Below the pieces are notes generated by a model. The model was not told the origin of the DNA. It saw only the letters and a program-made list of their open reading frames with translations, and did not search any database. A stretch of DNA of 64,000 nt from Symbiodinium natans (taxonomy: Eukaryota > Sar > Dinophyceae > Suessiales > Symbiodiniaceae): positions 647,001 through 711,000 of the forward strand of contig CAJNDS010002202.1 of NCBI GenBank assembly GCA_905221605.1, read 5' to 3'. Positions 688 to 52,089 of the stretch are shown here, one piece after another. A program made the translations under genes and the position numbers. The stretch's first letter is position 1; every line of letters begins with the position of its first letter.

Positions 688-694
688 GTTAGAG

Positions 695-9430: not shown

Positions 9431-9512
9431 TGAGGGATTTTCCGTCGCGCCCAAAAATCCCCGAGAAGTCGGCGCCTGGCTCCGTCCAAGAGTTCAAGAG
9501 CCGGCGGAGCAC
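9431..9512 (-). CDS. EEP-like gene, exon 19 (last recognised)
   Basis: Acceptor CCTCAG|G. Encodes VLRRLLNSWTEPGADF and an open continuation (IFGRDGKSL). Its phase 0 matches exon 18. The donor is unclear (GC at GCCCTATC assumed). Later exons should carry further catalytic motifs but were not recognised. Confidence 0.42.
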
Positions 9513-12500
9513 CTGAGGAAGGGTTTAGGGTTTAGGGTTTAGGATTTAGGGTTTCGGGTTTAGGGTTTAGGGCTTAGGGTTGGGCTTAGCTTGTGCTCCA
9601 GATACAGAGGTCACACCTGAATCGCTTTCTAGGTGCTAGAGTCATCAAGGAATAGCCAGGGCACCGCTCTTTTGTTGCAAGGGGTTGAGAAGGGAACCCG
9701 ATGCAGCCCTCATTTTAAGGTCTTCCATTTAAGGGTTTGTGGGTCTACTTGGAGATTCAGGTTCATGGTACGTATTGTAGAACTGTACTTCTAACTGTAC
9801 TTATAACCATGCTAGGGCACTTAAGGGGCTTAACAGTGGATTAGAAGTGCAGTTATAATTGGTTGATTAGTACGATGAACCTCCAAGTCCCCTAAACCCT
9901 AAACCCTAAACCCTAAACCCTAAACCCTAAACCCTAAACCCTAAACGCTTCACAACAGCTCTCGCATCCCGGGCGCAGCTCCGCAGAAATCGTTGTGCCA
10001 AGGATTCACTGCGCTTGAGCGCTGAAAATGGCGGCGGAAGTGGGCACAGTCCCTAATAGGGATTATGGAACCCCAGGACTGTTAGTATAACCCTAAGGGT
10101 CCATGTACCTTATAATTATATACTTAGACCAAAAAGTCCTTATATAGGAAGTACTTTAAGGCCCCAAGTATTCCATATTTAGGTACATGGACCCTTAGGG
10201 TAAGAGGGAACATCCGAATCTTCGGGGTGTTGTGAGGCTTCAAGGCTGAGAGGCTTGTATAGATATCAGGGAGTCCAGGGCTCAGAAGAGGCTCAGAGGC
10301 TTATATGTTGCAGGCGCGCCGGCTGAGGCCGTTTGGGTTCTTAAGGTAGGGCATGGGGAATCTGCATGGGGCTCTGTGGGACCTCCAACAAACCTTGCTG
10401 TGAGCCCGAAAAAACTGCATGAACACTAGTAAGCCCTAGAGAGCCCTTTGCCCCCAAGGCCTACACCCGAACCATGAAACACTAAAGTTCCTCAGCAACA
10501 AAGCGGTTTAGGGTTCGTTGCTTCATACCCCAAATATCCCAATAGTTCCCTAGGGCCCTTTAAGAACCCGCTGTGAAATATTCCTGAATATGATCTTATT
10601 CAACCCCAATAAGGGCAAATATGAAATACCACAATGGCGCATAAAGCCTAAGACTCAAGCCTTGATACTCTCCCTAAACTCTAAACCCCAAACCCTTCAC
10701 CCCAAACCCTAACCCTGCACCCCAAACCCTAAACTCTAAACCCTAAACCTCTCTCACATATATAACTTAAACATTGGGGAGTTACTGGGCAAGGTCGCCG
10801 TTTTACTGGGCAAGGTCGCCGTGTTACTGGGCAAGGTGGTTTTAGGGTTCAGGCCCCACCCTGGGCTGGCTTTAGGGTTCAGGCCCCACTCTGGGCTGGC
10901 TTTAGGGCCCTAAACCCTAACCCCTAAAACCCTGAACCCTAACCCCTAACCCCTAAAACCCCAAAAAGATTACTTCCATCATCCTCGGGCCCGTTGCCAC
11001 CTCTTCCGGCGATGAGAAGATGTCCCGCCGGAGACTGCAGCTTTCTTAGGGTTCAGGGCTTAGGGCTTAGGGCTTGGGGTTTAGGGTTCAGGGTTTAGGG
11101 TTTAGGGTTTGGGGTTTGGGGTTTAGGGTTTAGGGTTTAGGGCTTAGGGTTTGAGGTTTAGGGTTTGGGGTTTAGGGTTTGGGGTTTAGGGTTCAGGGTT
11201 AGATGTCTAGGGCTTAGGAAGACTTCGAAACCACGGAATCCCCCCCAAAGCTACCAAGTACAGAATGGCAGAGCTTAGGGCGGGGTCTTTGGAGTTCCGA
11301 CTTCACGTGCCACACAGGGTTTAGGGTTTAGGGTTTAGGGTTTAGGGTTTAGGGTTTAGGGTTTAGGGTTTAGGGTTTAGGGTTTAGGATTCGACTTCAC
11401 TATCGACTCCTCATCCTCTACCGCGTCTTCCAGATTTGCTGGGAGACTCGCGGTCTTTGTCGATGTCATCCCCACACAACTGAAACCATAAACCCCAGAA
11501 ACCCCAAACACCCGACCCTAAAGCCCAAACTCCAACCACCCCCACCCCCCCCCCCCTCCCCTCCAAACCCTAACCCCCAAACCGCAAACCACTAAACCCA
11601 ACATCCAAGTCCCCAACACCCTCAACCCTAAACCCTAAACCCCCAACCCCAGAACCCAAAACCCTAAACCCAAAACCCCTAAACCCAAAACCCCACACTC
11701 CTACTGGGTGCCCGACAGCATGATGGAATTCTGTGCCCGCTCGCTGCTGAAGCTCCTGGGGGGTTTCGGAAATTGGGGTGCCTTATGGGGGGGGGGGGGG
11801 GGGGGGTCGCTTTTTCATAGGGGGGGGGGGGGGGGGCGTGCTACTATTTGGGGTCTATTTTGGGGGCTAAACCCTAAACCCTAAATGCTAATTAAGCTCA
11901 CCCTAAATGTTCGTAAACCCTCTCCTTGGAAAGCATCGGAGGGGTCGGCTTACTAGGGAACCAAAGGTTCAGGATTTAGGGTTCCCAGGGATTGAGGCTT
12001 TAGGGTTTAGTGCTCTGGCGATTTTAGGGTTTAGGAGTCAGGGTTCCCAGGGGTTGAGGGTTCAAGGTTAGGATTTAGGGTTCCCAGGAGTTGAGGGTTT
12101 AGGGCTTTAGGGTTTAGGAGTGTGTTTAGCGTTTCGGATTTGGTCCCAAGGGGTTTAAGGTTTAGGGTGAAGCTTCGGGTTTAATTAGGGCTTAGGGTTT
12201 GAGGGCTTAGGGTTTTTGGGGTACTCACCAGACTACGGAGTTTGGGGTATCAAGTGTTGCGAGCATCTTCCTACAACATATATCACCTCCCGCGGGGCCC
12301 AGAAGCAGGGTGACATGGCTGAGCCCTATATGGAAGTTTACGATCTCAGGGGTACCTTTTTGGGGTCCTTATATCCTAAGGGGATCCTACTATTTGGGGT
12401 CTATTTTGGGGGTCCTCGACTTTCCCCGAAAACTTCAGCACCTGAAACCCCAAACACCCCCAAACCCACCCTCAGAGCCTTGACACCCTCATTGTCCCTG

Positions 12501-15500
12501 TGTTTTCGCTTGGAATTTAGGGATTTGAGCTACTTCATAGGGCATAGGAGTTCCCCAAACCATAAATAGCCATAAACCCTAAACCCTAAACCCTAAACTC
12601 TAAACCCTAAACCCTAAACCCTAAACTCTAAACCCTAAACCCTAAACCCTAAACCCTAAACCCTAAACCTACCTACCATGTACTGCATTCCCCCCCGTTG
12701 GCGCCTGGGAACGACGATGTGGTGGCTCGCCGTGTACTCCTTGCGCCTTATTCTCGTGGGGCCATGCTATGGCAGAAGACATACGTCTCTGTCTTAAACC
12801 ATCTGGTTTCGGGTTTAGGGTTTGGGGGCCGTGAAGGGTTTAGGACTTGGGATGTTCAGTCCTTAATAGGGATTATAGTAGGGGTGCTATAATCCCTATT
12901 CAGGACTGATAGTATAAGGGGAAACATCCAGACCCTAAGCCCCAACGCCCTGAACCCCTCTCCCTAACACCCTAAACCCTAAACCCTAAACGCTAATCCC
13001 CAAACCCTTCTCCCTAAACCCTAGACACCAACAAGGGAACCCTCTGTCAGTCTGTCCTTGCTAAACAGATCTATGCTGGCTTCGAAGGAGTGATGGTTTA
13101 GGGCTCAGCGATTAGGGCCTACCCAAAGGCTCCTATGTAGTACCTTCTTGGGGTAGTATATTAGAATCCCCTGCAACTAACCAAAGAAGGAACTACATTG
13201 GAGCCTTTGGGTAGCTTGGCTGCACTTAGCAGGGTAGCTATAAATTTAATTTTTAGCTACCTTGTTAAGGAACCCAATAAACCCAAAAATGGTAAAGATG
13301 TAAAGTTACAGTAAAGCACCACAGAGTAACTAACCCAAAAAGGAACTACATTGGAGCCTTTGGGTAGGGTTGAGGATTTGGGCTTGGCCGCACTTAGGAG
13401 GGTAGCCAAAAAATTAAGACTTTTAGCTGCCTTATTAAACCCAATAAACCCCAAAAAGGCTAAGGATCTAAAGTTACAGTAAAGCACCACAGAGGGTTGA
13501 GGATTTGGGGTGTAGGGTTTAATTGAGCTCGATGCTTGGCTGAGCATGAGGCAGCAGCGCGAGGAGCTCCGAGCCGGCCTTAAAGGCAGAGGATGCTCTG
13601 GGCTGGGAGGTTAGGGTTTAGGGTTTAGGGTTTTAGGGTTTAGGGTTTGGGGTTTAGGGTTTTAGGGTTTAGGGTTTGGGGTTTAGGGTCTAGGGTTTAG
13701 GGTTTGGGGTTTGGGGTTCAGGGTCTAGGGTTTAGGGTCCAGGGTGAACCTGCAAGCCCCCCCCACTCCACTAGGACTAGCTCAAGGAACCTTTTTAACA
13801 GATCATTACAATGGTTTCTTCTTCATCATTCTGTAGAGCAGTTTTTCATTTATTGGGCTTCCTTCAGCAGTTCCTAGCCAAGAATACCCTGAGTCACATA
13901 GAGGCGTAGCCGGCCCGAGATTGGTCCGGACTTTGGTCCATCCATGCCGGACATTTTACTTGGGATTTGCTGGAGATATCATGAAACGTGGCCGTGCACA
14001 AAGAGAAGTGATTCATGATGCGCACCACTCCAGATAAGGCCGTAAGCGCACCTAACCTAAAGCTCCATCTGAGAGTGGCACGGTTTGAGTCTCTTAACCC
14101 CAAATGATGGTACAGAGGGGAGGGTGGTCCCTAGCCCCCAAATGTTGGGGAGAGGTTCGAGAGTACAAGTACAAGAGAGTATGAAGAAACGAACCCTAAA
14201 CCATTAACTATATACCAAGCAAGCCGTACAAGGGTTCTTGAAATCCTGGTTCCTTGCTGCAAGGTTTTTTGTGAGCTCATTGTACTGCAGCACAACCCTA
14301 AATCCTCAAACGGCACTCTCGGTCGAAAACAGAACGCCCAAAAGCCCAAGAGCCTCCTGCAAGAAGAGCGCGTCGGCGTCCTCTTCAACCGAAAGCTTTA
14401 CCCTACGGCCTGAACCCATCTAGCGTTGTGTCTGGGGGCTTTTGCCCTCCTCGTTTCGATACCTTGTCGTAGGAAATGGCTCCTATTCCGAAGTCAAGAT
14501 GGAAATGGCCAGACCTCCCTAAATGATGGTCCCTCGCTGGGCCCCCTAGATAGATTGACCCTGGATATCATACCTAGAGGGTCCACTTCATAGTACCAAA
14601 AGCCCCATACATCATGTAGTGCTTTTGGGGAACATATTTTTGCAATCGTACAAAAGCGCGAACCTCTGGGAGAAGTACCCCAAAAGGGACCACGACTTTA
14701 AGAGCCCATAAATACGTTCGGGCCCTACACCCTAAACCCTAAACCCTAAACCCTAAACCGTAACCAACCGAGCTAAAGTGAACCCCAGGAGATATACTAA
14801 GCCGTAGCAGGAATATCGGCATCAGGATCCTTGTGTTCCTGCATTTTGGTAAAATCCATGCCTGAGGTTCCCTTGCTGGGTGTTAGGGTGTTCGGGTGCT
14901 AGGGTGTTAGGGTGTCAGGGTTCTAGGGTTCTAGGGTTTAGGGTTAGGGTAGGGTTCTGATACCTTGTATATCGTCTCCCCAACCCTGCTCTGTAAAGCC
15001 AGTCCACCCCCTCAGAAATCCGCAGACGACCGGCTTGCGGGGGTGCCCAGACGTCTTAACCAAGCTCCAAAAATATCATGAGTCCTGCAGAGCACAACAC
15101 AGCCACACGGTAAACTCCAAAACGTTAAAACATCCTCTATCCCCATACCCCAAAAGGTATACCAAAGGGAATCCCAGCTCGAATCATCCTCAAACCATGT
15201 TCAACTTTCTGGAGTTTACTGCAAAGCTGTAGCCACATACCAGGCTAAACCCTAAACCCACATACCAGGCTAAACCCTAAACCCGAAATCCTAAACCCTA
15301 AACCCTAAACCCTAAGCCCTAAGCCCTGAGCCCTAAGCCCCCCCCAAACCCGCTCAAAGCGTCCTTGTAGGTCCCCATCAAGATGTCTTTGATGAGCGAG
15401 CTCTTCTTGCCTCAAAGGCTTAGGGTTTGGGGTTAGGGTTTCAGGGTTAGGGTTTAAGGGTAAGGGTTAAGGGTTAAGGGTTAAGGGTTAAGGGTTAAGG

Positions 15501-18500
15501 GTTAAGGGTTAAGGGTTAAGGGTTAAGGGTTTAGGGTTTAGGGTTTAGGCCTTGAACCCCCCTGCATCCGAAGGATTTTGGTAGTTCTCTAAATTGGGGT
15601 CCCTGGTGCGGCTCCTTGTAAAACGGTGCTTTACTAAACAGGGGGGCCTGCAAAGGGAACCTGGTTTAGAGTTTAGGGTTTTGGGGTTTACGGTTCAGGT
15701 TCAACCTTCGACCTTACTGCTTACCAACTCTGGGCCCTAATAAGCCGTAAACTGCAAAGAAAAAACACTAGAAACCAAGCGCTCGACATTCCTAAGCCCG
15801 AAGCCCTAAACCCCAATCCATAAACCCCAAACCCAAGCCCTAAACCCACCCTCTAAGCCCAAGAGGGGATTCTGGCTCCTCTGAAGCTGAGCCGCTGTTG
15901 AGCGAGGTGCATATCCTTAGCCAAGCAGCTTTCTTGGTTGCTCTTTAACCCCCCAAGCAAAGTTTAACTTTTAGCTCCCTTAATATGAATACGAGGAACC
16001 CCAAAAAGTACGAAGTGATAAAGTTGTAGTACAGTCCCACTTCATCGCCACTGACTGTGAAGATAGCCGTTTCAGGGTTTCAGCCTCGCTGCCTGGAAGG
16101 TGAAGTTTAGGGTTTGATGAGGGTTTAGGGTTTAGGGTTTAGGGTTTAATTAGGGCGCAGGGCTTAGGGTTTAGGGTCCCTAAACCCTAAACCCTAAACC
16201 CTAAACCCTAAACCCTAAACCCTAAAGCAACATGCAAAGTACTCTAACCGGGTTGTGTAATAGAAAATACGTATCCTTATTTACTCATGTTATGGCTATA
16301 AGTTACCCTAAACCCCAAACCCTAAATCCTATACCAAAAGGAGGCCCAAAAACCTTAAAGTTCATCCGTTGGCCAAGTAAGTGTACCAAAACCCAGAAAG
16401 ATATGAGGACTTACGGAAGTAGGGGACCTTTAACATGGACCGCAGATATTGGGATTCCCTTAGAATGAGGACTCCAACAAACAAGGAACCGCAATTGCGG
16501 AAACCACCCTATGCCCTCAACAGTATACCCCGGGCCCCGAGCATTCACCGCGAAAACCCTTTAACAAACCCGGAACATGAACCCTAACATCCACCCAAAA
16601 TAGCCAACCTCCTGAACATTAAGCTCTAAACCCAAAACCCTAAACCCTACCCAAAGGCTCCAATGTAGTTCCTTTTTGGGTTAGCTATAGGGGATTCTAG
16701 TATACTACCTCCAAAAGGTACTACATAGGAGCCTTTGGGTAGACACTAAACCCTAAACCCTAAACCCTAAACCATAAACCCCAAAACCCAAACTTCCTGG
16801 GAAAGCGTCTCGCGGCGAAGGACTTCCCAGTTGGCACCCCCTTTCTGCTGCATCAGGCCTTGGAGCAATGCTTGCTTGGGGCTTTGGGGGTTTAGGGTTT
16901 AGGGTTTAGGGTTTAGGGTTTAGGGTTTAGGGTTTAGGGATTGGGGTTTAGGGTTTGGGGGTTTAGGGGTTTGCACACCTCTCATGGCCAAAAAGCCCCA
17001 ATGCCCAAGCCGGGGGGGCACAAAGTCTAAACCGCAAACGGATCATTCGGGCAGCTCGGGGCTTTCCGGGGTCAAAACATTGCGACGTTGAATTTGGGCT
17101 TGTTTCTAGCGAATGGGCTCTGCAGTTGTTGGGGCTTACAAGGCAAAGCCCTCCTAGTTATAATATTATGAGCAGAGGCATAAGGGTTGTAAGAACCTTA
17201 GTTAGTGCTTGGTACAGTAGGGGGGGGGGGGTTCCCTCCTTGTAGGGTTTGCAAGGTGTAGCCCGAAACCCTAAACCCAAACCCTAAGCCCCTAAACCGT
17301 AAACCCGACAGTCCGAGCCAGGCCACGAATCAAGATCGCGTCGAAGGCCCCTTGCAAGATCAACCTGCGGTTTTGCGACGTCCATAAACAGGGTTTAGGG
17401 TTTAGGGTTTAGGGTTTAGGGTTTAGGGTTTCGGGTTTAGGGACGCCCCCAGACCCCTAACCCTAAACCCCTGAAGCCCTGCAAACCCTGTTAACCCTAA
17501 GATCCCTGCAAACCTCATAAACCCTACAACCCCTAGGAACCCTATAAACCCTCGAAACCCTGAATCCTACAAAGTCAGTATAGAGTCTTGAAGCCAGAGT
17601 CCCTAAACCCTAAGCCCCTAAGCACCTAAGCCCTAAACCCTAAACCCTAAACCCCAAACCCCAAACCCAAGGGGCCCTGAAGATCGGTTCGCCCTTTATG
17701 GTCCTATTGCGCAGCTTCAGGGTTTGGGGTTGATGGTTTAGTGTGCAGGGTTTACGTGCCCAACTCCAAAACACTGAACCCCTGAACCCTAAACCCCAAA
17801 CCCTAAACCCTAACACCCCGAACCCGAATTCCCGTGTATGTCCAGCGATGGTGAGATTCCAACAGGCCATGCTGCCCTCCAAGCCTTCTAGCAGAGTTCC
17901 GAAGAAACCGTGTAGGGTTTAGGGTTTAGGATTTAGGGTTTAGGGTTTAGGGCTTAGGGTTTATAGGGTGAGTGTTAGGATTTAGGGCTTTGCGTATATC
18001 TATCCCTGAACCCCCCCTCCCCCCCCCCAACAGCACACTGCAGCGTGAGGAACTGCAGGGGGATGCTCGCTGCTTCCTCCTCCTCACCTCGGCGGAACGG
18101 TCGCCTATTGATTTCTTTAGGGTTTAGGGTTTAGGGTTCAATTCTGGCTTACGGTTTAACAAGGGTTTAGGGTTGAATTAGGGTTTAGGGTTTGGGGGTC
18201 TAGAGTCGTTTCGTCTTATTTATTTATTCAGATCAATGTAAGAGCAAAATCTTTGTATACCGCTGATTGTGCTGAAAGATATTCCTGTCAAGATAGTAAT
18301 ATAGACATGTCAAATAATGGTTTTGTGAAAGAATAAGACAAATTGCTTAAGGTTATCTTCATACGGTTAAAAACTTGGGCTTTTGAGTTTAGCGTTAACG
18401 AGATTAGAGTAGCTACTATTTTGGGGCTCCTGCTTCATTTGCCCAGTTAGGGTTACTTGGTAGGCCAGTAACCATCTTGTACTGCGGGGACCGATGTTGT

Positions 18501-21500
18501 TGGTTGGTTACTTTTTCAAGGAACCATGAACCAAAAAGATGGGTGAAGGGCACCACTAGCCTAAACCCTAAACCCTAAAACCCTAAAACCCTACAACCCT
18601 CAAACCCTAAACCCTAAATCCCTAATCCCTAAACCTGGATAGGGTCATAAAGGTGTACTTGGAGGTCCATGGTACTTACTAACCAATTATAACTGTGCTT
18701 ATAGCTGTACGTATAACCATATATTACCCTAAACCCGAAACCCCAAACTCAAAACCCTCAACCCTCAGCCCTAACTATTAAATAGGTACCATGAACCTCC
18801 AAGTAGGATGAGTGCTAGGTTGGGCGTGGGTGGAGAGTAAGGGTTTAGGGTTTAGGGTTCAGGGATTTTGAGGTTCAGGGTTTAGGGTTTAGGGTTTAGG
18901 GTTTATGGTTTGGGGTTTAGTGCTTAGGGCTAGGGGCTCAAGCCTTAAGCTGCATTGCGAGGCGCTGATCGCAGGGTACTTGGCCTTTCGGATCTTCTGC
19001 AGAAGGCTGTGCACTTTCCTCGGCAGTGCGGCAGACACCGGTCTGAGGTTCCAAGTACCCTAAACCCTAAACCCTAAACCCTAAACCCTAAACCCTAAAC
19101 CCTAGACCCTAAACCCTAAACCCTAAACCCTAAACCCTAAACCCTAGACCCTAAACCCTAAACCCTAAACCCTAAACCCTAAACCCTAAACCCTAAACCC
19201 TAAACCCTAAACCCTAAACCCTAAACCCTAAAACCTAAACCCTAAACCCTAAACCCTAAACTCTAAACCCCAAACCCTAAACCCTAAACCCTAACCCTAA
19301 ACCCTAAACCCTAAACCAATGGACCGGGAAGAGCGTATATCCCGCAACCCCCAGCAAATCAGAGAATGCTCCTCCTGATTATGTCTTTGAGGATCTTCGC
19401 GAAAGCTCTACAACTCAATCTGCTTCTCAAAGCTATCTGAGTGTGTTGACATGTTGGGGCACACAACCCCTATACACCCCTACCTAAACCCTAAACCCTA
19501 AACCCTTAACCCTAAACCCCAAGGTAGTGAGGCGGAGGATCTTTGGCCCCTTGCCGTCCACCTCCACATCCGTGTGGAAGAAGAAGTCGATCCACTTGCT
19601 GAACCAGACCTCTACTAGCTTGTGGGTTGGGAGGTCTTGGGTTGATAATTATGTTTGTTTTTCCTTGGAACTTTTATTATGTATTATTATTATTGTTCTT
19701 TTTTTATTTTTATTTTTTTTTGGGGGGGGGGGGGGGGGGGGGGGGGCAAACCCTGTAACCTGAACTCTAAACCCTAATCTAAACCCGAAGCCAGGAACCC
19801 CCTAAACCCTGAAACCCGCAAGCCTGGTCACCGGCTAGGGCTCCTACACAGGCAAATCCCGAGATTTGAGCTACCGCGTAAGCGCATTGAGCCCTGTGGG
19901 GTTCAGGGTTCAGGGGGAACTTGGGCGTTTCGGGGGCTTTCAGGCTCAACTTTGGTGCTTTCAGGTTAAGAGCGTTGATGGGTGCTGAAGGGCTTTGGGA
20001 GTCAAAGGGCTTCTGGCGGTTAGGGTTCAGGGTTTCGGTTGGGTGTTCATTAGTTGAATTTGAGTTTTTTTGGTTTTGAGGGTTTAGGGTTCTTGAGTCT
20101 AGGGGGCTTAGGGTGCTGGTTGCTTTTCTGCGTTAAATCCCCTAACAAATGGGGACACTTGTCTACCCCTTGTACGCCCGTTTGAAACCCCAAAGGCTGA
20201 AACTTCGGGACCCTTTGGTAAGGGGCCAACCATATTCAGGGACCATGCAACTACCCTTCGAGAGATTCATATGACTCTACCTTGGACCCCAAAGTTTGTA
20301 CCCTCGCGCTTGGGACCCCCTTTTTTCAAATAATCCCTCAGGAAATATAAGGGCCCTTTGAGACCTCAGACTACACATGGCCAATATGCTTCCCACTCCT
20401 TGCGCAACATTGGGGGCGGTGGTGGGTGGAGGGCGTGAATTGTCGGGGGAGGGGTTTCAGAGCCTGCCACCCCTAAACCCCTAAATCCTGAACCTCGAAG
20501 TTGCCAAGCCCTAAGCCCCCTAAACCCCAAAAAACCCAAAAAACCCAAAAAAAAACTCAAAAAAACCCTAAACCCCTAAACCCCTAAACCCCTAAAACCC
20601 TAAACCCCAAACCCTAAACCCTAAACCCTAAACCCTAGACCCCAAACCCTAAACCCTAAACTCTGGCCTGCATGGATCCCAGCTCCTCCGGAAAGCAGTT
20701 GATCACCGTCGGCCTGGCACGTCGACCACTTACCTTCCCAAACAACCATGATACGCCCTAAACCCTAAACCCTAAAACCCTAAACCCTAAACTTTAAACT
20801 CTAAACCCCAAACCCTAGACCCTAAACCCTAAGCCCTAGACCCTAGACCCTATACCCTAAACTTTCTCACTCCGACAGAATATTGGACTCAGGAGTAGCC
20901 TAAGAATACACAAGAGTGCCCTTCTTGGCTTTGAAGAGGGTTATAGGGACACCCGCCGGAATCCCTTGGGCTTTAGGGCTTAGGGTCTTCGGGTGTGGGG
21001 CCTAGGGTTTAGGGGGTTTCGGGCTGCCTACTTTCGGAGGCTTTAGAAATTAAGTCGGGTTCAGGGCTGTATGGGTTTCAGGGTTGAAGGTTCAAACCCT
21101 AACCCTGGCCGAAATTTGCAATGCTCTTCGGGTTTAGGGTGGGTAAGCCAATCATCCCTAATTGCCTCTAAGGCTTCCCCCAAAAGCCCTTCAAACACCC
21201 CCCCCCCCCAGCCTCCCTGAAAACAGACACCTGAAGCCCTATAAACCCTTCTCATCCCCTAAACCCTAAACCCTAAACCCTAAACCCCAAACCCTAAACC
21301 CTAAACCCTAAACCCTAAACCCTAAACCCCAAACCCTAAACCCTAAACCCTAAACCCAGATTGCCCTTTACCCTCAACGCCCCCACAGGTTGCCTGTAGG
21401 CACGCCCACCAGAGGCGAGCTCCTTGGCGGGCTGCAAGGGCTCGAGGCTTCGGGGGGGGGGGGGGGGGGGGGGGGGGTGGGGCACGGCAAACCCTAAACC

Positions 21501-42655: not shown

Positions 42656-43173
42656 AACCCACCCGGCGGCTCCAAGAAAGTGACCTATGGCTAGTTTGGG
42701 CTAGTTGGAACCCGGGGGATTGCAAGGCGTGATAGGGACTCATGCATTGTGCGGTTTAGGGTTTAGGGTTTAGGGTTTAGGGTGTAGGGTTTAGGGTTTA
42801 GGGTTTAGGGTTAGGGGTTTCGGGGTTTAGGGTCATGACACCTAAACCCTCAACCTCTGTTTCATCCCCGAAGCCGAGAAGCCCCTGCAGCCCTCAACTT
42901 GCAACACCCGGCGTCCGAACTTCTCACCCAAACCCTGCAAAGCTAAGGCGCAGCCCTCTAAACCCTAAACCCTAACCCTAAACCCTAGCCCTAAACCCTA
43001 AACCCTATGGCCCTAAACCCTCAACCCTAAACCCTAAACCCTGAACCCTGAACCCTGAACACCCTCCCCTCCCAACCCTAAACCTGAGTTCTAACAATTC
43101 CTGCGGAAAACGAAGCCCGCGGGACCTTCTACACCCTCCTTCGCACGGGGGTTCATGGGTAGCTCACCTTGAC

Positions 43174-43284
43174 TCGGCTGCTCTTAGCAGGGTAGCTATA
43201 AATGAAATTTTTAGCTGCCTTCTTAAGAAACCCAATAAACCCAAAAAGGCTAAAGATGTAAAGTTACAGTAAAGCACCACAAAG
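43174..43284. repeat. SINE-like repeat, copy 4
   Basis: CGGCTGCTCTTAGCAGGGTA to GTTACAGTAAAGCACCACAA. Confidence 0.7.
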
Positions 43285-43751
43285 TTGAGAACCTGCAGCT
43301 CCACGTCCATCAAGTTAAAAGAGTCGAGGGTTTAGGCTTTAGGGTTTACGGCTTGGGGTTTAGGGTTTAAGCCTACCACAAGAAACCGTCTTTTCGGCTT
43401 TGACTAGAACGCCCTGTGTAGGTGTCTTAAGCAACCTACCCAAACAAGTAGGCTTTGGGATGTTTAGGGTAAGCCATAAAACCTTGCTAAAAGCCTTGCC
43501 GGCCTGGTATTTGAATAGTCGCAAACTTGATAAACACCCTAAAACCTAAACTCTAAACCCTAAACCTTAAACCCTAAACCCGAACTCTAAACCCTAAACC
43601 CCTAAACCCCTACTTGACAAGAGCCCTGGGGTTTGGAGGTTTAAGGTGTTCGGTGGAGGCTTTAGGGTTTAGGTCTAGGAGGAGCGGAGCAACCCTGTGA
43701 CGCCACATGTTGTGGACAAGCTAAAGCCTAGGAACATGCATCCTATAGTAT

Positions 43752-44014: not shown

Positions 44015-44129
44015 CATGTTGCAAGAAACCCTGCCAACAACTACCCATGTATCTCCCCATTCTCAGGAGAACATGGCATCCATCTTCTCCAAGAGAGCGC
44101 GCGCCTTGGACAACACAAGGGGCTTATGA

Positions 44130-44285
44130 CAGGGCTTATGGATTAGGGATTAGGGGCGAGGGTTTAGGTTTGGGGGTTAGGGTTTAGGGTTTAGGGCGTA
44201 GGGCTTAGGGCTTAGGGCTTAGGGCTTAGGGCTTGGGGTTTAGGGTTTGGGGTTTAGGGTTCAGGGTTCAGGGTTTAGGGTTTCG
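44130..44285 (+). repeat. Variant TTTAGGG array
   Basis: Runs of CTTAGGG then GTTTGGG variants. 44290-44740 is unique with a short palindrome (CTACTGAGTACTGAGTAG). Confidence 0.85.
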
Positions 44286-44742
44286 GATCCAGTGGTTACA
44301 GGATGGGGCTCATATGCCTCACCATGAGTAGCACGGCAACCGAACAGTTCAAAGTCCTAAGGGCCAACCAGAAGACAGCCACGTGGTCCCGTAATCTGGG
44401 CCCTTAAGTGGGGACCCCTTATATGCCCCGTATATAACCCTACATTACCCAAGGGCCCATACTTCAGAACTCTGTAAAGGCGGTAAGGAACCAATTTCAG
44501 GGACCGTGTAACTACCCGTAGACAAGCAAAGAAAAAGGTATCCTACGTTGCTTCCCGAGATGCCCTAAACTTTGCACTTGAAGTATGTACTTTGCAAGTC
44601 CCGCAGAAGTCCGAACTTGAGGGTCAGGATGGGGACTTAGGGCTTACCTGTGACCTTATAATGTAGCCACAGCTTTAAGGGATATACCTACTGAGTACTG
44701 AGTAGGGGGTACTTGCTACTAAGCTGCTGTAGGTAGATAGGG

Positions 44743-45051
44743 TCTAGGGTTTAGGGTTTAGGGTTTAGGGTTTTAGGGTTTAGGGTTTAGGGTTTAGGGT
44801 TTAGGGTTTAAGGTTTAGGGTTTAGGGTTTAGGGTTTAGGGTTTAGGTTTAGGGTTTAGGGTAGGGTTCAGGAAGTTTGGGGACTGCCAGTTTGAGCTCG
44901 AGGTCTGGGTTGGTGGCAGTCAATCCACGGAGGCGTGATGCAAGGCACGCTGCTTGGCTGCGCGCAAAAACCCTAAACCCTAAACCCTAAACCCTAAAAC
45001 CCTAAAACCCTAAACCCTAAACCCTAAACCCTAAACCCTAAACCCTAAACC
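44743..45051. repeat. Inverted telomeric arrays forming an intron-sized hairpin
   Basis: TTTAGGG 44743-44864 and CCCTAAA 44969-45051 enclose a 104-bp loop. As a minus-strand intron it starts G|GTTTAGGG. Confidence 0.85.
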
Positions 45052-45105
45052 GCAGCATGAAGTCGTCTTTATTGAGCAGGGTTCCTTGTCGAAAGAGCCC
45101 TGTGC
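45051..45105 (-). other. Exon-like island before a hairpin intron
   Basis: CATAAG|G, LFRQGTLLNKDDFMLR, then G|GTTTAGGG with 11 repeat units. Another minus frame (LDFIEEHIHKAQGSF) is open slightly upstream. Could be the exon after ATP-grasp-like exon F. Confidence 0.33.
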
Positions 45106-45301
45106 CTTATGAATGTGCTCCTCGATGAAATCGAGTTGGCCTCAACTTGCCTGTTTAGGGTTTAGGGGTTGTTTAGGGTTTAGGGTTTAGGGCATAGGCT
45201 TTGGGGTTTAGGGTTTAAGGATTAAAGCCGTTAGTTCTGGAATACTTCGACGCCAAGCCCATCCGAGCTCCAGCAACCCCGGGCGAAAACCACTCTAGGG
45301 G

Positions 45302-45535
45302 TTTAGGGTTTAGGGTTTAGGGTTTAGGGTTTAGGGTTTAGGGTTTAGGGTTTATTACCCCTACACAAAAACCTGAACCCTCAACCCTCAACCTCCAACC
45401 CTAAACCCTCAACCCCGAAACCCTAAACCCTGGGCCCTAAACCCTAAACCCTAAACCCTAAACCCTAAACCCTGAACCCTAAACCCTAAACCCTAATTAA
45501 ACCCTAAACCCGAAACCCTAAACCCTAAACCCTGA
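45302..45535. repeat. TTTAGGG array then CCCTAAA array
   Basis: 45302-45353 and 45431-45535 with variants; the second runs to the donor of ATP-grasp-like exon F. Confidence 0.9.
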
Positions 45536-45537
45536 AC

Positions 45538-45605
45538 CAGCTCTCTTCTTCTCCAGGCCCCCCTGCGCGCTTCTTTGGGATGTCAAAGCTCAGGTCTCCC
45601 CCGAC
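45538..45605 (-). CDS. ATP-grasp-like gene, exon F
   Basis: Acceptor CGCCCAG|G, phase 0. Encodes VGGDLSFDIPKKRA and then Gly/Glu-rich residues. The donor is GTTCAGGG, leading into TTTAGGG; a GC donor after KK is also possible. Confidence 0.5.
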
Positions 45606-48600
45606 CTGGGCGTTCAAGGTTTAGGGTTTAGGGTTTAGGGTTTAGGGTTTAGGGTTTAGGGTTTAGGGTTTAGGGTTTAGGGTTTAGGGTTTAGGGTTTA
45701 GGGCTTCGCGATTCGGGACCCCAATAAGGTACCCCTCATTCCGGAAACCCCCGACCTCAGAGGAGCTGCAGGCTTTTTGGGGGCTTGGGGGCTTACGGTC
45801 TTAGGGTTTGGGGTTTAGGGTTTGGTGTTTGGGGTGTAGGGTTTAGGGTTTGGGGTGCAGGGTTCAGGGTTGAGGTTTAGGGTTTAGGTTTAGGGATTGG
45901 GGTTTAGGGTTTTGGGGCTTGGGGTTCAGGGTTGCAGGTTCAGAGTTTGGGGTTCAGGGTTTGGGGTGTATAGGGTTTGGGGTTCAGGGTGCCCCAGGAA
46001 CGGTTTTTCCGCAGGTTATTTCAAAACCCTATGAGGCGCTTCGTGTTCGGGCCTTAGGGTTTAGGGACTCCTAAACAAGATTGCCTTGGCACCATTGTGT
46101 AAGGATCCCTAAACCCTAAACCCTAAACCCTAAACCCTAAACCCTAAACCCTAAACCCTAAACCGGTTACTTACCAGGTCGTCAACTGCCATCCAGACAG
46201 GCCCTTTGACCTCCGGCTCTCGAGCCGCGGCAACCGGGGCTTAGGGGCTTAGGGGTTTATAGGGGTTTAGGGGTTTAGGGGTTTAGGGGTTTAGGGGTTT
46301 AGGGTTTAGGGTTTAGGGTTTAGGGTTTAGGGTTTAGGGGTTTGGCATCCCGCAGACTTCTATTAGAACCGATGCATCCCACGCAGCGGATGTTCATCGC
46401 GCCGGCTTCGGTCAGGACGCTGTGCGTTTGGGACCTTTCAGCTTGCCCACCCTGACACGGTGCCTAACGAGAAACGAAAATTTCCAAAAGAATCCGGAAA
46501 AAGAAACTCCACGCAAATCCACGTTTTTTAGGCCTCACATACGCCTTTGACCCAGCGAACTTGAGCTTTGTTTCCAGGCTTGGGCAGCTTTGCCAGCACC
46601 ACTTCGCCAAACGCACACAGGTCTCCTGTGTAGTTGTAGTCGGTGCCGTTCATAGCACGGAAAGGAGTGCACCCGTCGCTGTTTTTGGGTAGGGTTTGGG
46701 GTGTTGGGGTTCAAGGGTTGAGGCGTGTGTGTTTTGTTGGATTAAGTGGCTTAGGGCTCACAGGGTTTAGGGTTTGCAGGGGTCAGGGGTTCAAGGTTTA
46801 GGCTTTAGGGTTTGGGTTTTAGGGCTTGGGGCTTTCGAACTTTTGGGTTCTGCAGCCCTTCCAAGCCCATAATTGGGGTTGTGCAGATGCCGACTGACCC
46901 CAATCCCCCAAACCCGATTTCTTGACTAGGGTTTAGGGTTTGGTTTAGGGTTTAGGGTTTCGGGCTTCGGGCTTCGGGTTTCGGGTTTACGGTTTGTAGG
47001 GCTTGGGGGAAGCTGCCTTCATGTCTATTTCCTCGGCCATAGACCCTAAATAAAAGACACCAACCTCAAACACAAGCACCGGTCTACTCTGGGCAAGCCC
47101 TGAACCCTGCGAGCCATAAATCTAGGAGTTATACCTGGGAGTCTTCGGGGGGTCCCTTTTTCAAGATCACTACGGGAAAATAGTCCCTTTTTCGGGAACT
47201 AAGGGCCACCCGAAACCCTAAACCCCAAACCCTAAACCCTAAACCCCCCGTAAAACCCTACAAGGGGATCCCGTTTCACTCCTCTCAGCCCCACGCGCGC
47301 GGGTTCACCTCGAAGATACAAATGCTGCCGTCGGCCCGCAGCTTGTAGTTGAAGTTGCAAATCCCGCCTTCTTGCTTAGGGTTTAGGGGTTTAGGGGTTA
47401 GGAGTTAGGGGTTTAGGGGTTTAGGGGCTGAGGGGTTGAGGGGTTTAGGGTTTGGGGTTTAGGGTTTAGGGTTTAGGGGTTGGGGTTTGGGGATTGGGGT
47501 TTGGGGCTCATTCGGGAGATCTAGGGTTTAGGGGAGGGGTTCAAGGCTGAGAGTGCGGTTTAAGGTTGAGGGAGGATTGAGGATGTAGGGAGGTTAGGGG
47601 GGAGTTGCAAGTGTCCAGGGTTTAGGGTTTAGGGTTTAGGGTTTAGGGTTAGGGTTTAGGGTTTAGGGTTTAGGGTTCTCCAGAGCTGATCGAGGGCAGG
47701 GGGAGGTTGCTGTTTTGTGGGCTGTCGGGCTTTGATTTGATGGCTGAGGCTGTTGGGGTGTTGCATTACCCTAAACCCTAAACCCTAAACCCTAAACCCT
47801 AAACCCTAAACCCGAAACCCTAAACTCTAAACCCTAAACCCTAAACCCTAAACCCTAAACCCTAGTGGGGAAGTGAGGGTTTCGGGTCGAAGCCTTTCAG
47901 GTTTGGGCTTGAGGTAGCGGGGGAGTTTGGGGTTGAGGGTCGGGGGTTCAGAGTTGAGGGCTGTAGGGTGTCAATTGAAGGGTAGGTGTGTTTCGTCAAG
48001 CAATACCATAAGCACGGCAGCACACCGGATCTCAACCCTAAACCCTAAACCCTAAACCCTAAACCCTACACCCTAAACCCTAAACCCTAAACCCTAAACC
48101 GCCTAAACCCTCAACACACAAGCCTGGCCAAGATAAACTAGACATGCCCAAGCCCTCTGGATTGGGGGGTACCTTTGGGGGTAAAACCTCAGGGGCACGA
48201 TGATGCGAGCTAAGGTTTACGGTTAAGGGTTAAGGGTTGAGGGTTAAGGGTTGAGGGTTGAGGGTTGAGGGTCTAGGGTTTAGGGTTTAGGGTTTAGGGT
48301 TCAGGGTTCAGGGTTTAGGGTTTCGGGTTTAGGGTTTAGGGTTTAGGGTTTAGGGTTTAATAAGGCTGTTTAAGGTTTAGGATTTGGGGTTTAGGGTTTA
48401 GGGTTGAGGGTTTAGGGTTTAAGGCTGTTTAGGGTTTAGGGTTTAGGGTTTAGGGTTTAGGGTTTAGGGTTTAGGGTTTAGGGTTTAAGGTTAGGCTAAG
48501 CTGTCGGCTGAAGCCCACGAGGAACTTCTCCATGATCTGCAGGTGCTCAGCCTTTGGCTTAGTTAATTATAGGGTTTAGGGTTGAGGGTTTAGGGTTTAG

Positions 48601-51600
48601 GGTTTGGGTCTAGGGTTCTTCAGGGAGGGGGGGTTCAAGGGGGGTATGTAACCCAAGCTTCCCTGACGCTCCCCACTCCTCCCTAAACCGGAGCCGCAAA
48701 TGTTGAAACCCTAAACCCTAAACCCTAAACTAAACCCTAAACCCTAAACCCTAAACCCTAAACCCAAACCCTAATTATACACCCTAAACCCTAAGCCCTA
48801 AGCCCTAAACCCTAGACCCTAAAAAGTAACCCTAAACCTCTCTTTCATATATATTTTAAATGTTAAGGAGTTACTGGGCAAGGTCGCCGTTTTACTGGGC
48901 AAGGTCGCCGTTTTACTGGGCAAGGTCGCCGTTTTACTGGGCAAGGTCGGTTTTGGTCAAAAAATCGACCTGCCCAGTAAAACGGCGACCTTGCCCAGGA
49001 AAACGGCGACCTTGCCCAGTAAAACGGCGACCTTGCCCAGTAAAACGGCGACCTTCGGTCACAAAATCGACCTTGCCCAGTAAAACGGCGACCTTGTCCA
49101 CCAAAACGGCGACCTTGCCCAGTAAAACGGCCGTTTTACTGGGCAAGGTCGCCGTTTTACTGGGCAAGGTCGCCGTTTTACTGGGCAAGGTCGCCGTTTT
49201 ACTGGGCAAGGTCGATTTTTTGACCAAAACCGACCTTGCCCAGTAAAACGGCGACGTTGCCCAGTAAAACGGCGACCTTCGGTCACAAAATCGACCTTAC
49301 CCAGGAAAACGGCGACCTTGCCCAGTAAAGGCCTCAAGGCCGGGTGTGGCTTGTGTTAAGTGCTTGGTACTACGGCGTGATTGGTGCATCCGAAGAGAAA
49401 ATAAGTAACCTTCTATTTTCTTAATGTTATGGGATTCTTTGGGCGGGTGGGTTTTTTCCGTTGCCTAGATACAATGCTGGCCTGGTAAATGCTCGAACTT
49501 GAGATGCTGAACCCTAAACCCTAAACCCTAAACCCTAAACCCTAAACCCTAAACCCTTAACCTGCGGTTTCGGGCTGCAGGGTTCTTAGAGACGTCTATC
49601 CTGCCGGTAAACGTGTCCGGCTGCTTCGTTGCGTTTGATCAAGCCACAGGCTGAAGATGTAAGAGCACTGAATAACCCTGCAGGTTTAGGGCGTAGGGTT
49701 GAGGGTTTAGGGGTTAGGGTTGAGGGTTTAGGGTTTAGGGTTTAGCGTTTCGGGTTTAGGTGCCGCAAGCCGGCGTCTGGGCTTTGGACCTCAAGTCCCC
49801 TGCAAACCCGGAAGCCCTAAACCCTAAACCCTATACCCTAAACCCTAAACCCCAACACCAGAAACCCTAAGCCCTCAACCCACACGAGGGAGGCCCGCCC
49901 CTAAATCTATAAGGCCTCCAACCTTAACCCTAAGTAAACCCCGGAAACCCTATAAACCCTGTAAACCCGATAAACCCCATCTGCCCTATAAACCCTATGA
50001 ACCCCTGTAACCACTGAAAATCCTATAACCCTATACACACGATAAAACCTCCAAACCCCTGTAAACACTGCAAACCCTAAGCCCTACACCCTCTCCTTAT
50101 AAACCGAAGGATGGTTTGTTTGTTTGGGATGCTTGGAAGTGGCCAAGGGCCCCAAACCCTTTAAGTTGCGGATAAACGCGAAAGTTTTAGGGTTGATTAA
50201 GAAGGCCACACAGGACAGGATGGACAAAGAACAGCCGAAACCCTAAACGTCAAGTCCTGAACCCTAAACCCTAAACCCTAAACCCTAAACCCTAAACCCT
50301 AAACCCTAAACCCTAAACCCTAAACCCTAAACCCTAAACCCTAAACCCTAAGGACAGGCAAGCTTCCGGAACACTGCGGAGCTCCTGGTCTACCAGGCGC
50401 ACGTGTGGCCAGACCTCGGGTTCAGGGTTTAGGGTTTAGGGTTTAGGGTTTAGGGTTTAGGGTTTAGGGTTTAGGGTTTAGGGTTTAGGGTTAGTCGCAG
50501 CGTGGCCCCACCCAAGTTACGCCAGAGACCCGAAAGCCCGGAAAAGCCCTAAACTGCCAACCTTCAAGCCTCAACTCTCAAGCCTAAACCCCTAAACCCC
50601 TAAACCCTGCCCTAAACCCCAAACCCCTAAACGCCTAAACCCCTAAACCCCTAAACGCCTAAACCCCTAAACCCCTAAACCCCTAAACCCCTAACCCCCT
50701 AAACCCCTAAACCCCTAAACCCCTAAACCCTACCCTAAACCCTAAACCCTAAACCCTAAACCCCTATAAACCCTAAACGCATAAACCCCAAAACATTCAA
50801 ACCCAAGCCCTCAGGAGCCCCCCAGGCCCGCCTAGTAGGGGACGAAAGGAGAGACCCCCATTTATTTAGGGTTTAGGGTTTAAGGTTTAGGGTTTAGGGT
50901 TTAGGGTTTCGGGTATATAGCAGGGGACACAAGTTAAGGGCCCATACTTCGGATCCCCTATTGGTAACAAACATGCCGCGGCTTTAGGGACTCGGTTCAG
51001 GGTTTAGGGTTTAGGGTTTAGGGTTTAGCCTTTAGGGTTTAGGGTTTAGGGTTTAGGGTTTAGGGTTTAGGGAGAGTTCAAAGGTTCGCAGCTTCCTCTC
51101 CTGGGCCACGATGTGATGCCGCAGCTTCCGTGCTTTGATGGGCTCGGTCAGAATTAAGACCGTGGGCAAGCCCCCTTTGTCGAAGACAGCCGTGCTGAAG
51201 CTGGCAGAGGCCATCCACTTCCGCGACCTCTTGGCACTGGGCCAACTGTTCCCACTTGCGTGCCTGGCTGCCCTGGCGGTCCACGCTGTGGTCTGGCAGA
51301 ACAGTTGGGTTGTCGTCAAACTCGGAATCTGGATCACACTCCCTTAGCCTCCCCCCCCCCCCCCCCTAACCCTAAACTCCTAAGCTCCTACACTCCAAAC
51401 TCCTAAACTCCTCAACTCCTGAACTCCTGAACTCCTAAACTCCTAACCCCTGAACTCCCCCCCCAAAATCCTGAACCCTAAACACTAAACCCTGAGCCTA
51501 AACCCCAAACCCTAACCCCCCTGGGGGGGAAGGGAAAAGTGCACCCCAAGCCCATCCGAAACCCCAAGCCCCAAACCCCCAAACCCCCGACGATGCCCAA

Positions 51601-52089
51601 AGCAAAACCTAAGCCCTAAACCCCAAGATCTTCCATCGAACTTAACGCTAAGAGGCACAGAGTTTCCTGCAAACGCAAAACTCTAGGTTTAGGGTTTCTA
51701 GGGTTTGTAGGGTTTGTGGGGTTTGTAGGGTTTACAGGGCTTATAGGGATTATGAGCTGTTTACAGGTCTCCAGGATTTTGGGGTTTACAGGGTTGCGGC
51801 TTAGTGTTTAGGGCCCAGGGGGGCCTAGCTTCTGCTACACAGAAGGTGGGTATAAGTGGGTTGAGGGCATGGGGTTTGGGGTTTGGGGTTTGGGGTTAAA
51901 CCCTATAAACCCTATAAACCCTGTAAACCCTATAAACCCTATAAACCCTATAAACCCTATGAAACCCTCTAAAACCCTATAAACCCTATAAACCCGGTAA
52001 AACCCGATAAAACCGCCGTGCCCATCAGCACCCCTGGGACTCCGCACATACGACTCGAGGGCATACTGATACCGGATGCCAGCCCAGTC
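45538..52089 (-). CDS. ATP-grasp-like protein gene (partial, six exons)
   Basis: Gene-level entry. In minus-strand order: DWAGIRYQYALESYV (52.0 kb), FSTAVFDKGGLPTVLILTEP (51.1 kb), VWPHVRLVDQELRSVPE (50.4 kb), AEHLQIMEKFLVGF (48.5 kb), GICNFNYKLRADGSICIF with EVNPR (47.3 kb), VGGDLSFDIPKKRA (45.6 kb). The E-V-N-P-R segment with a following glycine-rich turn is the metal-binding end of ATP-grasp ligases. Phases agree at 50364/48551, 48509/47367 and 47297/45605. The substrate is unknown and both ends of the gene are missing. Introns again carry telomeric arrays; the 47297-45605 intron also holds a retroelement fragment. Confidence 0.5.
45619..45704 (+). repeat. TTTAGGG array at the acceptor side of exon F
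   Basis: Twelve units about 13 bp from the exon. Confidence 0.93.
46110..46340. repeat. Arrays around the cassette-like island
   Basis: CCCTAAA 46110-46163 and TTTAGGGG/TTTAGGG 46243-46340 bracket the island 46175-46239. 45705-46105 is decayed TTTAGGG-like sequence. Confidence 0.9.
46175..46239. other. Exon-like island inside the E-F intron
   Basis: Minus: CCCCTAAG|, AREPEVKGPVWMAVDDL, |GTAAGTAACC, the best consensus GT donor in the region. +: ACTTACCAG|G, VVNCHPDRPFDLRLSSRG. The EVNPR/VGGDL join skips it, so it is a cassette exon, belongs to something else, or is chance. Confidence 0.33.
46365..46681 (-). pseudogene. Retrotransposon polyprotein fragment
   Basis: Minus strand 46681-46531 reads GCTPFRAMNGTDYNYTGDL, then CAFGEVVLAKLPKPGNKAQ and VRWVKGV; after a broken stretch 46450-46365 reads VLTEAGAMNIRC. 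This is the layout of the region after the integrase core in dinoflagellate LTR-element polyproteins. It is clearly degraded and lies in the intron between ATP-grasp-like exons E and F. Confidence 0.48.
47297..47367 (-). CDS. ATP-grasp-like gene, exon E (EVNPR motif)
   Basis: Acceptor AAGAAG|G. Encodes GICNFNYKLRADGSICIF followed by EVNPR. Phase-0 GC donor GCGTGGGG. The + strand here is also open, with a good pyrimidine tract before an AG, but the join to exon F supports the minus strand. Confidence 0.55.
47375..47862. repeat. Telomeric mosaic next to exon E
   Basis: TTTAGGGG-rich 47375-47480, TTTAGGG 47623-47674, CCCTAAA 47767-47862; unique loop 47680-47765. Confidence 0.9.
48228..48490 (+). 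repeat. TTTAGGG and GGGTTGA arrays
   Basis: GGGTTGA/GGGTTAA block 48228-48265, then two uniform arrays with a repeated AAGGCTGTTTA separator. Confidence 0.9.
48509..48551 (-). CDS. ATP-grasp-like gene, exon D
   Basis: Acceptor CCAAAG|G. Encodes AEHLQIMEKFLVGF; a GC donor (GCCGACAG) leaves one base, completing Ser before GICNFNYK. Confidence 0.5.
48871..49329. repeat. 21-bp repeat arranged in alternating inverted blocks
   Basis: Unit CTGGGCAAGGTCGCCGTTTT(A). Four forward units, spacer TTTTGGTCAAAAAATCGA, about six inverted units, then four forward units, the reverse-complement spacer, and inverted units again. It can fold into very long hairpins. ORFs here are artefacts of a period divisible by 3. 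Confidence 0.9.
50254..50492. repeat. CCCTAAA and TTTAGGG arrays around ATP-grasp-like exon C
   Basis: CCCTAAA 50254-50350 (14 units) and TTTAGGG 50426-50492 on the two sides of the exon. Confidence 0.93.
50364..50414 (-). CDS. ATP-grasp-like gene, exon C
   Basis: Acceptor CCCGAG|G; seventeen codons VWPHVRLVDQELRSVPE; phase-0 GC donor GCTTGCC. CCCTAAA array on the donor side and TTTAGGG array on the acceptor side (+ strand reading). Confidence 0.5.
50592..50760 (-). repeat. CCCCTAAA (8-bp) variant array
   Basis: About 17 units with an extra C, some CGCCTAAA, then normal CCCTAAA. Confidence 0.9.
51001..51071 (+). repeat. TTTAGGG array
   Basis: Ten units directly left of the possible exon B. 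Confidence 0.92.
51075..51227 (-). CDS. ATP-grasp-like gene, possible exon B
   Basis: Open minus frame with FSTAVFDKGGLPTVLILTEP after a possible AG|G at 51228. A second minus frame is more protein-like upstream (51230-51330, DSEFDDNPTVLPDHSVDRQG), so there may be a frameshift or two exons. Boundaries are poor. Confidence 0.3.
51898..52012 (-). repeat. CCCTATAAA (9-bp) variant array
   Basis: Telomeric unit enlarged by TA, about 12 copies, ending at exon A. A related GTAGGGTTT 9-bp run is at 51694-51760. 51340-51690 is C-rich decayed repeat. Confidence 0.9.
52014..52089 (-). CDS. ATP-grasp-like gene, exon A
   Basis: Acceptor AGTGAG|G. Encodes DWAGIRYQYALESYVRSPRG and beyond. The donor may be GTTTTATC, where the 9-bp variant array begins. 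Low similarity; kept for order and strand. Confidence 0.38.

Follow-up and report, generated by a model that had tools for sequence, protein, structure and literature searches.

Introns laced with telomeric repeat arrays in two genes of Symbiodinium natans, and how the arrays may have arisen

What is telomeric repeat doing in the middle of a contig? In the 64,000-nucleotide (nt) stretch of the Symbiodinium natans genome analysed here (the window: positions 647001-711000 of contig C1890, CAJNDS010002202.1, 1,464,712 bp), far from either contig end, arrays of TTTAGGG and its complement CCCTAAA make up a third of the sequence. TTTAGGG is the telomeric unit of dinoflagellates (PMC11453091). The original prediction on this DNA, made from its letters, held that two minus-strand genes can be followed through tiny exons between such arrays, and that the repeat is mainly intron material rather than a chromosome end. 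Our analysis indicates that these are almost certainly two real genes, split into exons of about 20-77 nt by array-bearing introns. Gene A is of the endonuclease/exonuclease/phosphatase type and gene B is a PPR/ATP-grasp gene.

Two genes between telomeric arrays

Arrays were called by wraparound alignment to the 7-mer at a score of at least 30; maxima of 15-22 were reached in the shuffled window and in a copia element described below. After merging, the window holds the following:

1-64000, no strand: 244 interstitial telomeric arrays, 124 CCCTAAA and 120 TTTAGGG as read on the plus strand, covering 33% of the window

Array lengths vary widely (median 70, maximum 600) and orientations are mixed, with alternation in 210 of 352 adjacent pairs in the window and its flanks. 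Since the window lies inside a ~1.46-Mb contig it is not a chromosome end, and a terminal telomere was rejected for this internal position and for the presence of both orientations. The arrays are interstitial telomeric sequence by their non-terminal position, and extreme in amount, position and polarity.

Exon pieces were first picked by eye with the help of known motifs, joined, and used as protein search queries. The gene A query retrieved dinoflagellate endonuclease/exonuclease/phosphatase proteins (best E 3.5e-68; of 724 proteins reaching E <= 0.001, the best 120 were listed), and the gene B query retrieved PPR/ATP-grasp proteins (22 at E <= 1, the best at E 8.6e-27). Dinoflagellate homologues carrying the joined motifs were among the matches; their absence had been named in the original prediction as a refutation, and that refutation did not occur. 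To lessen the effect of hand-picking, we ran a protein-to-DNA spliced alignment, blind to telomeric repeats, with profiles of the matches. Gene A scored 830 (matching part of the profile, retroelement left out) against a mean of 75 and a maximum of 96 for 24 column-shuffled profiles. With the retroelement kept, it scored 831, while 4 shuffles gave 95-119, the reversed profile 106 and the plus strand 98. Gene B scored 341 (43.5-53 kb) against a mean of 45 and a maximum of 61 in 24 such shuffles. These scores bear out the tracing of both genes through tiny exons.

From the 32 exons listed for gene A we kept 20, dropping 11 left of 10991 and a 6-nt one that fell within the copia element; from the 23 listed for gene B we kept 6, dropping 17 upstream. 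The exons below, all from the spliced alignment, join in frame to 306 amino acids (aa) for gene A (10991-35529) and 94 aa for gene B (44069-52089). Eight of them were absent from the search queries (seven in gene A, one in gene B) and fill gaps in order and frame.

Gene A, in order of translation:
35453-35529, minus: exon WRGSKDGVRIRAVSWNVAAVNNNPF(E)
34683-34756, minus: exon (E)YWITHPSAEYRALMESVEKFIVEP(G)
33766-33800, minus: exon (G)EDDVPLHSVFT, absent from the query
33344-33397, minus: exon ESMFQTLTSQMRAAGLEQ
32408-32441, minus: exon VDAVEKLWPEY(R), absent from the query
31638-31691, minus: exon (R)SRRIVSQFLRDATIGKK(R)
30919-30956, minus: exon (R)LASMPDRVTNTI
20668-20733, minus: exon VSGRRARPTVINCFPEELGSMQ
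19542-19609, minus: exon VWFSKWIDFFFHTDVEVDGKGP(K)
18966-19018, minus: exon KVHSLLQKIRKAKYPAI(S)
18054-18087, minus: exon EEEEAASIPL(Q), absent from the query
17327-17364, minus: exon LILQGAFDAILI(R)
16810-16858, minus: exon LMQQKGGANWEVLRR(E)
15896-15915, minus: exon ICTSLN(S), 20 nt, absent from the query
15364-15410, minus: exon KKSSLIKDILMGTYK
14354-14380, minus: exon DADALFLQE
13553-13578, minus: exon AGSELLAL(L), absent from the query
12705-12746, minus: exon RKEYTASHHIVVP(R), absent from the query
11717-11755, minus: exon SFSSERAQNSIM(L), absent from the query
10991-11034, minus: exon LRRDIFSSPEEVAT, the last recognised in the window

Gene B, in order of translation:
52048-52089, minus: exon DWAGIRYQYALESY
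50367-50414, minus: exon VWPHVRLVDQELRSVP
48509-48551, minus: exon AEHLQIMEKFLVGF
47297-47367, minus: exon GICNFNYKLRADGSICIFEVNPR
45567-45605, minus: exon VGGDLSFDIPKKR
44063-44104, minus: last exon ARALLEKMDAMFS, then TGA (44063-44065); absent from the query

Four joins had been predicted, and all of them recur on the minus strand with order and phase preserved: NNNPF(E) to YWITHPS (35453-35529 and 34683-34756), GKK(R) to LASMPDR (31638-31691 and 30919-30956), TYK to DADALFLQE (15364-15410 and 14354-14380), and FEVNPR to VGGDL in gene B (47297-47367 and 45567-45605). The outer limits fared worse. The segment at the proposed left limit of 9431 (9394-9519) gained no support as a gene A exon and no homologue was found for it, and gene B does not stop at 45591 but runs further left to its last exon at 44069-44104 and the stop, where its homologue P0121 ends too. 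The query pieces that did not survive alignment were 9394-9519, one near 11.46 kb, and those near 51.1 and 49.6 kb.

Gene A is endonuclease/exonuclease/phosphatase-like by similarity. It is 69% identical over 303 aa to a Durusdinium protein, P0001, whose name comes from its source and whose domain PF26695 was precomputed there; a Pfam scan of the first hand-joined version gave no family. The alignment has one 2-aa gap, at the retroelement-holding intron, so that two homologue residues are unaccounted for across that join. With P0031 gene A shares 88% identity over 264 columns; P0031 is a frame of 380 aa whose contig, at 1271 bp, leaves no room for introns and would therefore be a transcript or a processed copy belonging to a relative. 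A 30-protein tree groups gene A with P0031 (100/99), then with Effrenium, Durusdinium, Cladocopium and one further entry (99/96), with Polarella further out, a placement of this dinoflagellate near or within Symbiodiniaceae. The assembly also holds an intronless relative of gene A (L022:1501-2976, C1744:329534-331009), a 516-aa frame 43% identical to P0001, whose matched stretch is array-free.

Gene B resembles the C-terminal part of PPR/ATP-grasp proteins. It is 92.6% identical over 94 aa, ungapped, to the metagenome protein P0121, which bears precomputed ATP-grasp and PPR domains; a Pfam scan of the first hand-joined version, which held wrong pieces, reached 0.064 at best (ATPgrasp_Ter).

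Neither gene was recognised in full within the window. We did not recognise the C-terminal part of gene A in positions 1-10990 or the next 10 kb: left of 10991 the similarity stayed close to chance level (score 64, with 45-58 for 4 shuffles and 52.5 for the plus strand; once the left flank was included, 84, with 51-70 for 3 shuffles). When the entire assembly (759 Mb, 2543 contigs) was searched, C-terminal parts were found at 543-546 kb of C1890 on the same strand (contig 545634-543448), aligned as DANTHELKVDGK, AHVLEFEELYNSLGLE, ACWGKVAPDLYTTFNARTY and QPQLNKAAKSSELHSKGDRNPKD (six rows, two dropped; score 257 against 32-35 in 4 shuffles). About 55 residues between these and the window exons were not located, 546-637 kb lying outside the sequence examined. 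Unless the contig is misjoined, positions 1-10990 would therefore lie inside gene A, which would continue ~100 kb left of the window and span at least 139 kb. For gene B, no N-terminal PPR exons were recognised in 52.1-64 kb or in the 10 kb beyond; the N-terminal profile scored 107 against 49-64 in 3 shuffles, a score inflated by the true exon 52048-52089.

Both genes are probably not fragments. That they are a decayed or misassembled copy with relic exons is hardly credible: the ~100-kb distance to the next gene A exons and the missing N-terminus of gene B would fit such a copy, but all 26 exons are open, the frame is kept over 24 junctions, conserved C-terminal exons of gene A follow on the same strand and in the same order, and another source numbers counterparts of the two genes consecutively (g17185 and g17186), both closely resembling Durusdinium proteins. 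The consecutive numbers suggest that the genes are neighbours in that source too.

The introns had been described as built from telomeric repeat. Every one of the 24 verified introns does contain at least one TTTAGGG or CCCTAAA array, and together with the mid-contig position this upholds the reading of the repeat as intron material. The array share per intron, however, runs from 6% (in the retroelement-holding intron) to 60%, with a median of about 31%, so the introns are laced with arrays, not wholly built of them. Arrays cover none of 1,198 exon bases and none of the 7,756 bases of the copia element, and occupy 26% of gene A introns (retroelement counted in) and 52% of gene B introns. Two qualifications apply: arrays are about equally dense between and outside the recognised exons, the three remaining regions being 32-37% array, and the introns hold much other sequence, including the 7.7-kb retroelement.

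22337-30080, minus: full-length Ty1/copia-type long terminal repeat (LTR) element lying in gene A's 10-kb intron, with RVT_2, rve and zf-CCHC matches, an LTR pair and flanks

This element has two identical 148-bp LTRs, a 2419-aa open frame (22509-29768, minus) and TATG on both flanks; its insertion appears recent, judged from LTR identity over 148 bp. The window also holds several smaller repeats:

48871-49329 and 10782-10843: palindromic repeat blocks sharing the core TTACTGGGCAAGGTCGCCGT, oriented both ways, at two places 38 kb apart
6271-6379, 36979-37086, 13119-13214, 16650-16739, 10090-10201 and 12856-12909: short fold-back palindromes resembling miniature inverted-repeat transposable elements, in introns and intergenic; those at 13122-13211 and 16650-16739 are 90% alike in inverse orientation
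13215-13327, 43173-43285 and 21890-21981: dispersed ~110-bp element, intronic and intergenic, whose copies match the first one at 76-91%
37881-38211: degenerate tandem repeat with a 21-bp unit, between the genes where arrays are sparse
21-240: 109-bp unit in two copies, 99% alike
19722-19746, 21452-21482 and about 11788-11836: long G runs, some adjoining telomeric arrays
46540-46690, minus: open piece SDGCTPFRAMNGTDYNYTGDLCAFGEVVLAKLPKPGNKAQVRWVKG inside a gene B intron, presumably akin to a retroelement polyprotein

Array polarity, splice sites and spread

We call a segment with a CCCTAAA array on its left and a TTTAGGG array on its right a C-to-G gap. Of the 26 exons, 15 lie in such gaps, whereas for random 45-nt intervals 20% would be expected to do so (p 2e-5). 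When the arrays within 60 nt of an exon are read on the gene strand, the closest one towards the donor is TTTAGGG in 18 of 22 cases (p 0.002), and the closest one towards the acceptor is CCCTAAA in 18 of 21 (p 0.0007); these p values treat exons as independent. Two of the four far gene A exons have the same setting. So does a tentative further exon, picked by eye from the sequence:

40502-40581, minus: candidate 5' exon of gene A with start codon, signal-peptide-like, MGRVLHWALPLALPGRLAGLFWQLPD

The polarity extends beyond the window. We examined 18 other stretches (171 kb in total, from 20-30 kb of contigs that were chosen by their number rather than randomly), which were 13% telomeric overall and 0-49% each, the 49% stretch lying on C1890. 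C-to-G segments peak at 60-120 nt, both in the window and flanks (58/106, 55%) and in the 18 stretches (38/73, 52%); G-to-C segments show no such peak (32/104 and 15/76). Where arrays meet within 10 nt, head-to-head junctions outnumber tail-to-tail ones by 16 to 6 in the window and flanks (p 0.03) and by 18 to 4 in the other stretches (p 0.002). The GC content of C-to-G segments exceeds that of other segments of like length, at 0.578 against 0.525 in the 18 stretches and two flanks (p 6e-6) and at 0.551 against 0.512 in the window with known exon gaps removed (p 0.001), as is expected if many hold unrecognised exons. Codon-usage coding scores separated exon gaps from others weakly.

The intron borders are of the dinoflagellate spliceosomal type. 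Acceptors are AG/G in 23 of 24 introns and donors are GC (14), GT (5) or GA (5); the alignment rewarded AG and GT/GC/GA, preferred GT over GC, and gave no reward for the G after AG. GC and GA donors are found in 25-74% of Symbiodiniaceae introns (PMC11453091). At nine of the 26 exons a CCCTAAA array lies within 11 nt upstream, which makes a separate branch site between array and exon unlikely. CTAA[AC], which resembles the branch-site consensus, occurs no more than 55 nt from the acceptor in 15 of the 24 introns, and in 14 of these its distance is 17-37 nt; for AGG sites on that strand the figure is 253 of 2172. One intron was folded:

33398-33765, minus: intron reading donor, 79 nt, TTTAGGG array, loop, and CCCTAAA array ending a few nt from the acceptor

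A long stem is predicted between its two arrays (-150.5 kcal/mol, z -8.0).

How general is this architecture? Among ten loci on seven contigs matching the tRNA-synthetase family PF00133, four (on 3 of the 7 contigs) are 19-50% telomeric, and many of 133 kinase matches are single long open frames. We therefore rejected the notion that every gene of this genome is built like this; a family scan of one sampled locus gave no informative result. Introns with telomeric arrays are probably widespread without being the rule, and intronless genes are common.

Where the arrays may come from

The explanation that we favour, at a rough probability of 0.55 for the whole, is that these are array-laced introns whose arrays arose through telomerase-mediated break repair, were kept out of exons by selection, and are tolerated or used in splicing. 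Telomerase would extend each 3' end at a DNA break with TTTAGGG, and rejoining of the extended ends would leave TTTAGGG...CCCTAAA head to head, with or without filler. With both ends extended and rejoined, the plus strand would read TTTAGGG and then CCCTAAA whatever the direction of the gene; the model accounts for the polarity, for the excess of direct head-to-head junctions and, as filler may be of any length, for the wide G-to-C distances. Selection would remove insertions within exons, and CCCTAAA-exon-TTTAGGG units would remain. The published model for interstitial telomeric sequences of mammals is repair of double-strand breaks with the help of telomerase (PMC2246262, PMC7215372). On its own, the origin by telomerase at breaks is a tentative proposal, falling a little short of even odds.

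The introns would be removed by the ordinary dinoflagellate spliceosome (GC/GT/GA donors, AG/G acceptors). A CCCTAAA array beside the acceptor may be harmless or even useful there, because it is AG-free and C-rich and repeats a branch-site-like CTAAA(C) at the right distance; TTTAGGG before the acceptor would offer false TTTAG/G acceptors. Paired arrays may fold into stems that bring the intron ends together. An effect of intronic telomeric repeats on splicing is named as interesting to test in PMC7215372; a helpful role of the arrays here seems rather doubtful.

Several observations weigh against the favoured explanation. The rules are not strict: 11 of 26 exons lie outside C-to-G gaps, 9 of 24 introns have no CTAA[AC] near the acceptor, and the CTAA[AC] statistic partly restates the nearness of arrays to acceptors. 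A recognised exon sits in just 15 of the window's 79 C-to-G gaps, for which reason we rejected the idea that every such gap is an exon. Among the ten PF00133 loci, two have 1-6% telomeric sequence and four have none. That these introns are spliced in this species is itself deduced from homologues, and the polarity could stem from the needs of splicing rather than from the insertion mechanism.

This last point is a serious rival, unlikely by itself, that may act together with break repair. Arrays would arise anywhere, CCCTAAA would be favoured before acceptors and TTTAGGG after donors, and stems of inverted pairs would aid intron definition. Runs of GGG are intronic splicing enhancers in other organisms; the nine closely abutting CCCTAAA arrays leave little room for another branch site, and the 14 introns with CTAA[AC] at 17-37 nt and the strong stem predicted in the sole folded intron point the same way. 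However, direct head-to-head junctions are favoured even where no exon intervenes, and TTTAGGG carries both GT and TTTAG/G, so that avoidance beside donors would be expected, not favour.

A stronger claim, which we consider quite unlikely, is that telomeric repeat is a working part of the splicing code: head-to-head arrays made by telomerase would create or enlarge introns and define them, CCCTAAA serving as branch site and C-rich tract, TTTAGGG marking the donor and the stem pairing the ends. If so, a large part of this genome's exons would sit in telomere-flanked units of about 100 nt.

Less likely than break repair, and distinctly improbable, is that the TTTAGGG...CCCTAAA pairs are the ends of an introner with telomeric terminal inverted repeats, which would have created or expanded the introns. 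Dinoflagellates do have introners with inverted repeats and hairpins (PMC7789003, PMC11453091), and direct repeats of 6 and 7 nt stand at the borders of 2 of the 24 introns. In the other 22, however, border repeats are 0-4 nt, and the array lengths vary as widely as noted above. With arrays masked, comparison of the window with itself (60 matches) gave no family of interiors common to array pairs; the repeats found in the window are short elements at unrelated places.

Very unlikely, finally, is deposition by a retroelement with a telomerase-like polymerase, such as an endonuclease-lacking Penelope-like element (these attach to telomeric repeats), or capture of telomeric fragments, the only long element recognised in the window being copia-like and array-free, with no search aimed at Penelope-like elements made in the window or genome-wide. 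Capture at breaks is named as a possibility in PMC2246262.

Known systems and what the arrays may mean

The arrays share features with four known systems. Like mammalian interstitial telomeric sequences, they are short internal arrays of the organism's own telomeric unit, in introns and not in exons (PMC2246262, PMC7215372, PMC6410037). Mammalian loci are scattered, and the 31% of human ones that lie in introns are compatible with chance (PMC7215372); here, by contrast, arrays fill 33% of the window, occur in every verified intron, often 2-30 nt from splice sites, and are polar. The head-to-head blocks recall chromosome fusion scars (PMC6410037), but those are single points, whereas here hundreds of short arrays recur every few hundred bases inside genes.

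With the introners of Amoebophrya and other dinoflagellates (PMC7789003, PMC11453091) these introns have in common inverted repeats near intron ends, a possible stem and non-GT donors. Introners, however, are family copies, whose inverted repeats measure 8-20 nt and direct repeats 3-5 nt in Amoebophrya; the repeats in the present introns consist of telomeric arrays, tens to hundreds of nt long, and share no interiors within the window. Euglenid nonconventional introns (PMC4770533, PMC6221363) likewise have their ends brought together by RNA structure, here a prediction from sequence; they lack conserved borders, whereas AG/G acceptors are kept here in nearly all introns. Introns with telomeric repeats have been made experimentally in yeast and hamster cells (PMC6410037).

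As the original prediction had supposed, we found no description of a genome with introns laced with telomeric arrays in the open-access literature, most subscription papers lying outside that search. Dinoflagellate introners with inverted repeats are reportedly treated by Roy et al. 2023, cited in PMC11453091.

If transcripts confirm these genes, telomeric repeat would account for a large share of this genome and would sit inside genes, beside splice sites; the 13% in the 18 stretches would amount to roughly 100 Mb genome-wide if they were representative, and they were not drawn to be so. In such species telomere fluorescence in situ hybridisation, telomere-length estimates and the calling of chromosome ends by TTTAGGG may mislead, and gene finders may miss genes of this kind. 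The finding raises the question of how the repeat spread within genes, and whether it helps splicing or merely survives it. It would also make two questions testable: whether telomerase or telomere-like repair builds dinoflagellate introns, and whether telomeric RNA sequence can act as a splicing signal.

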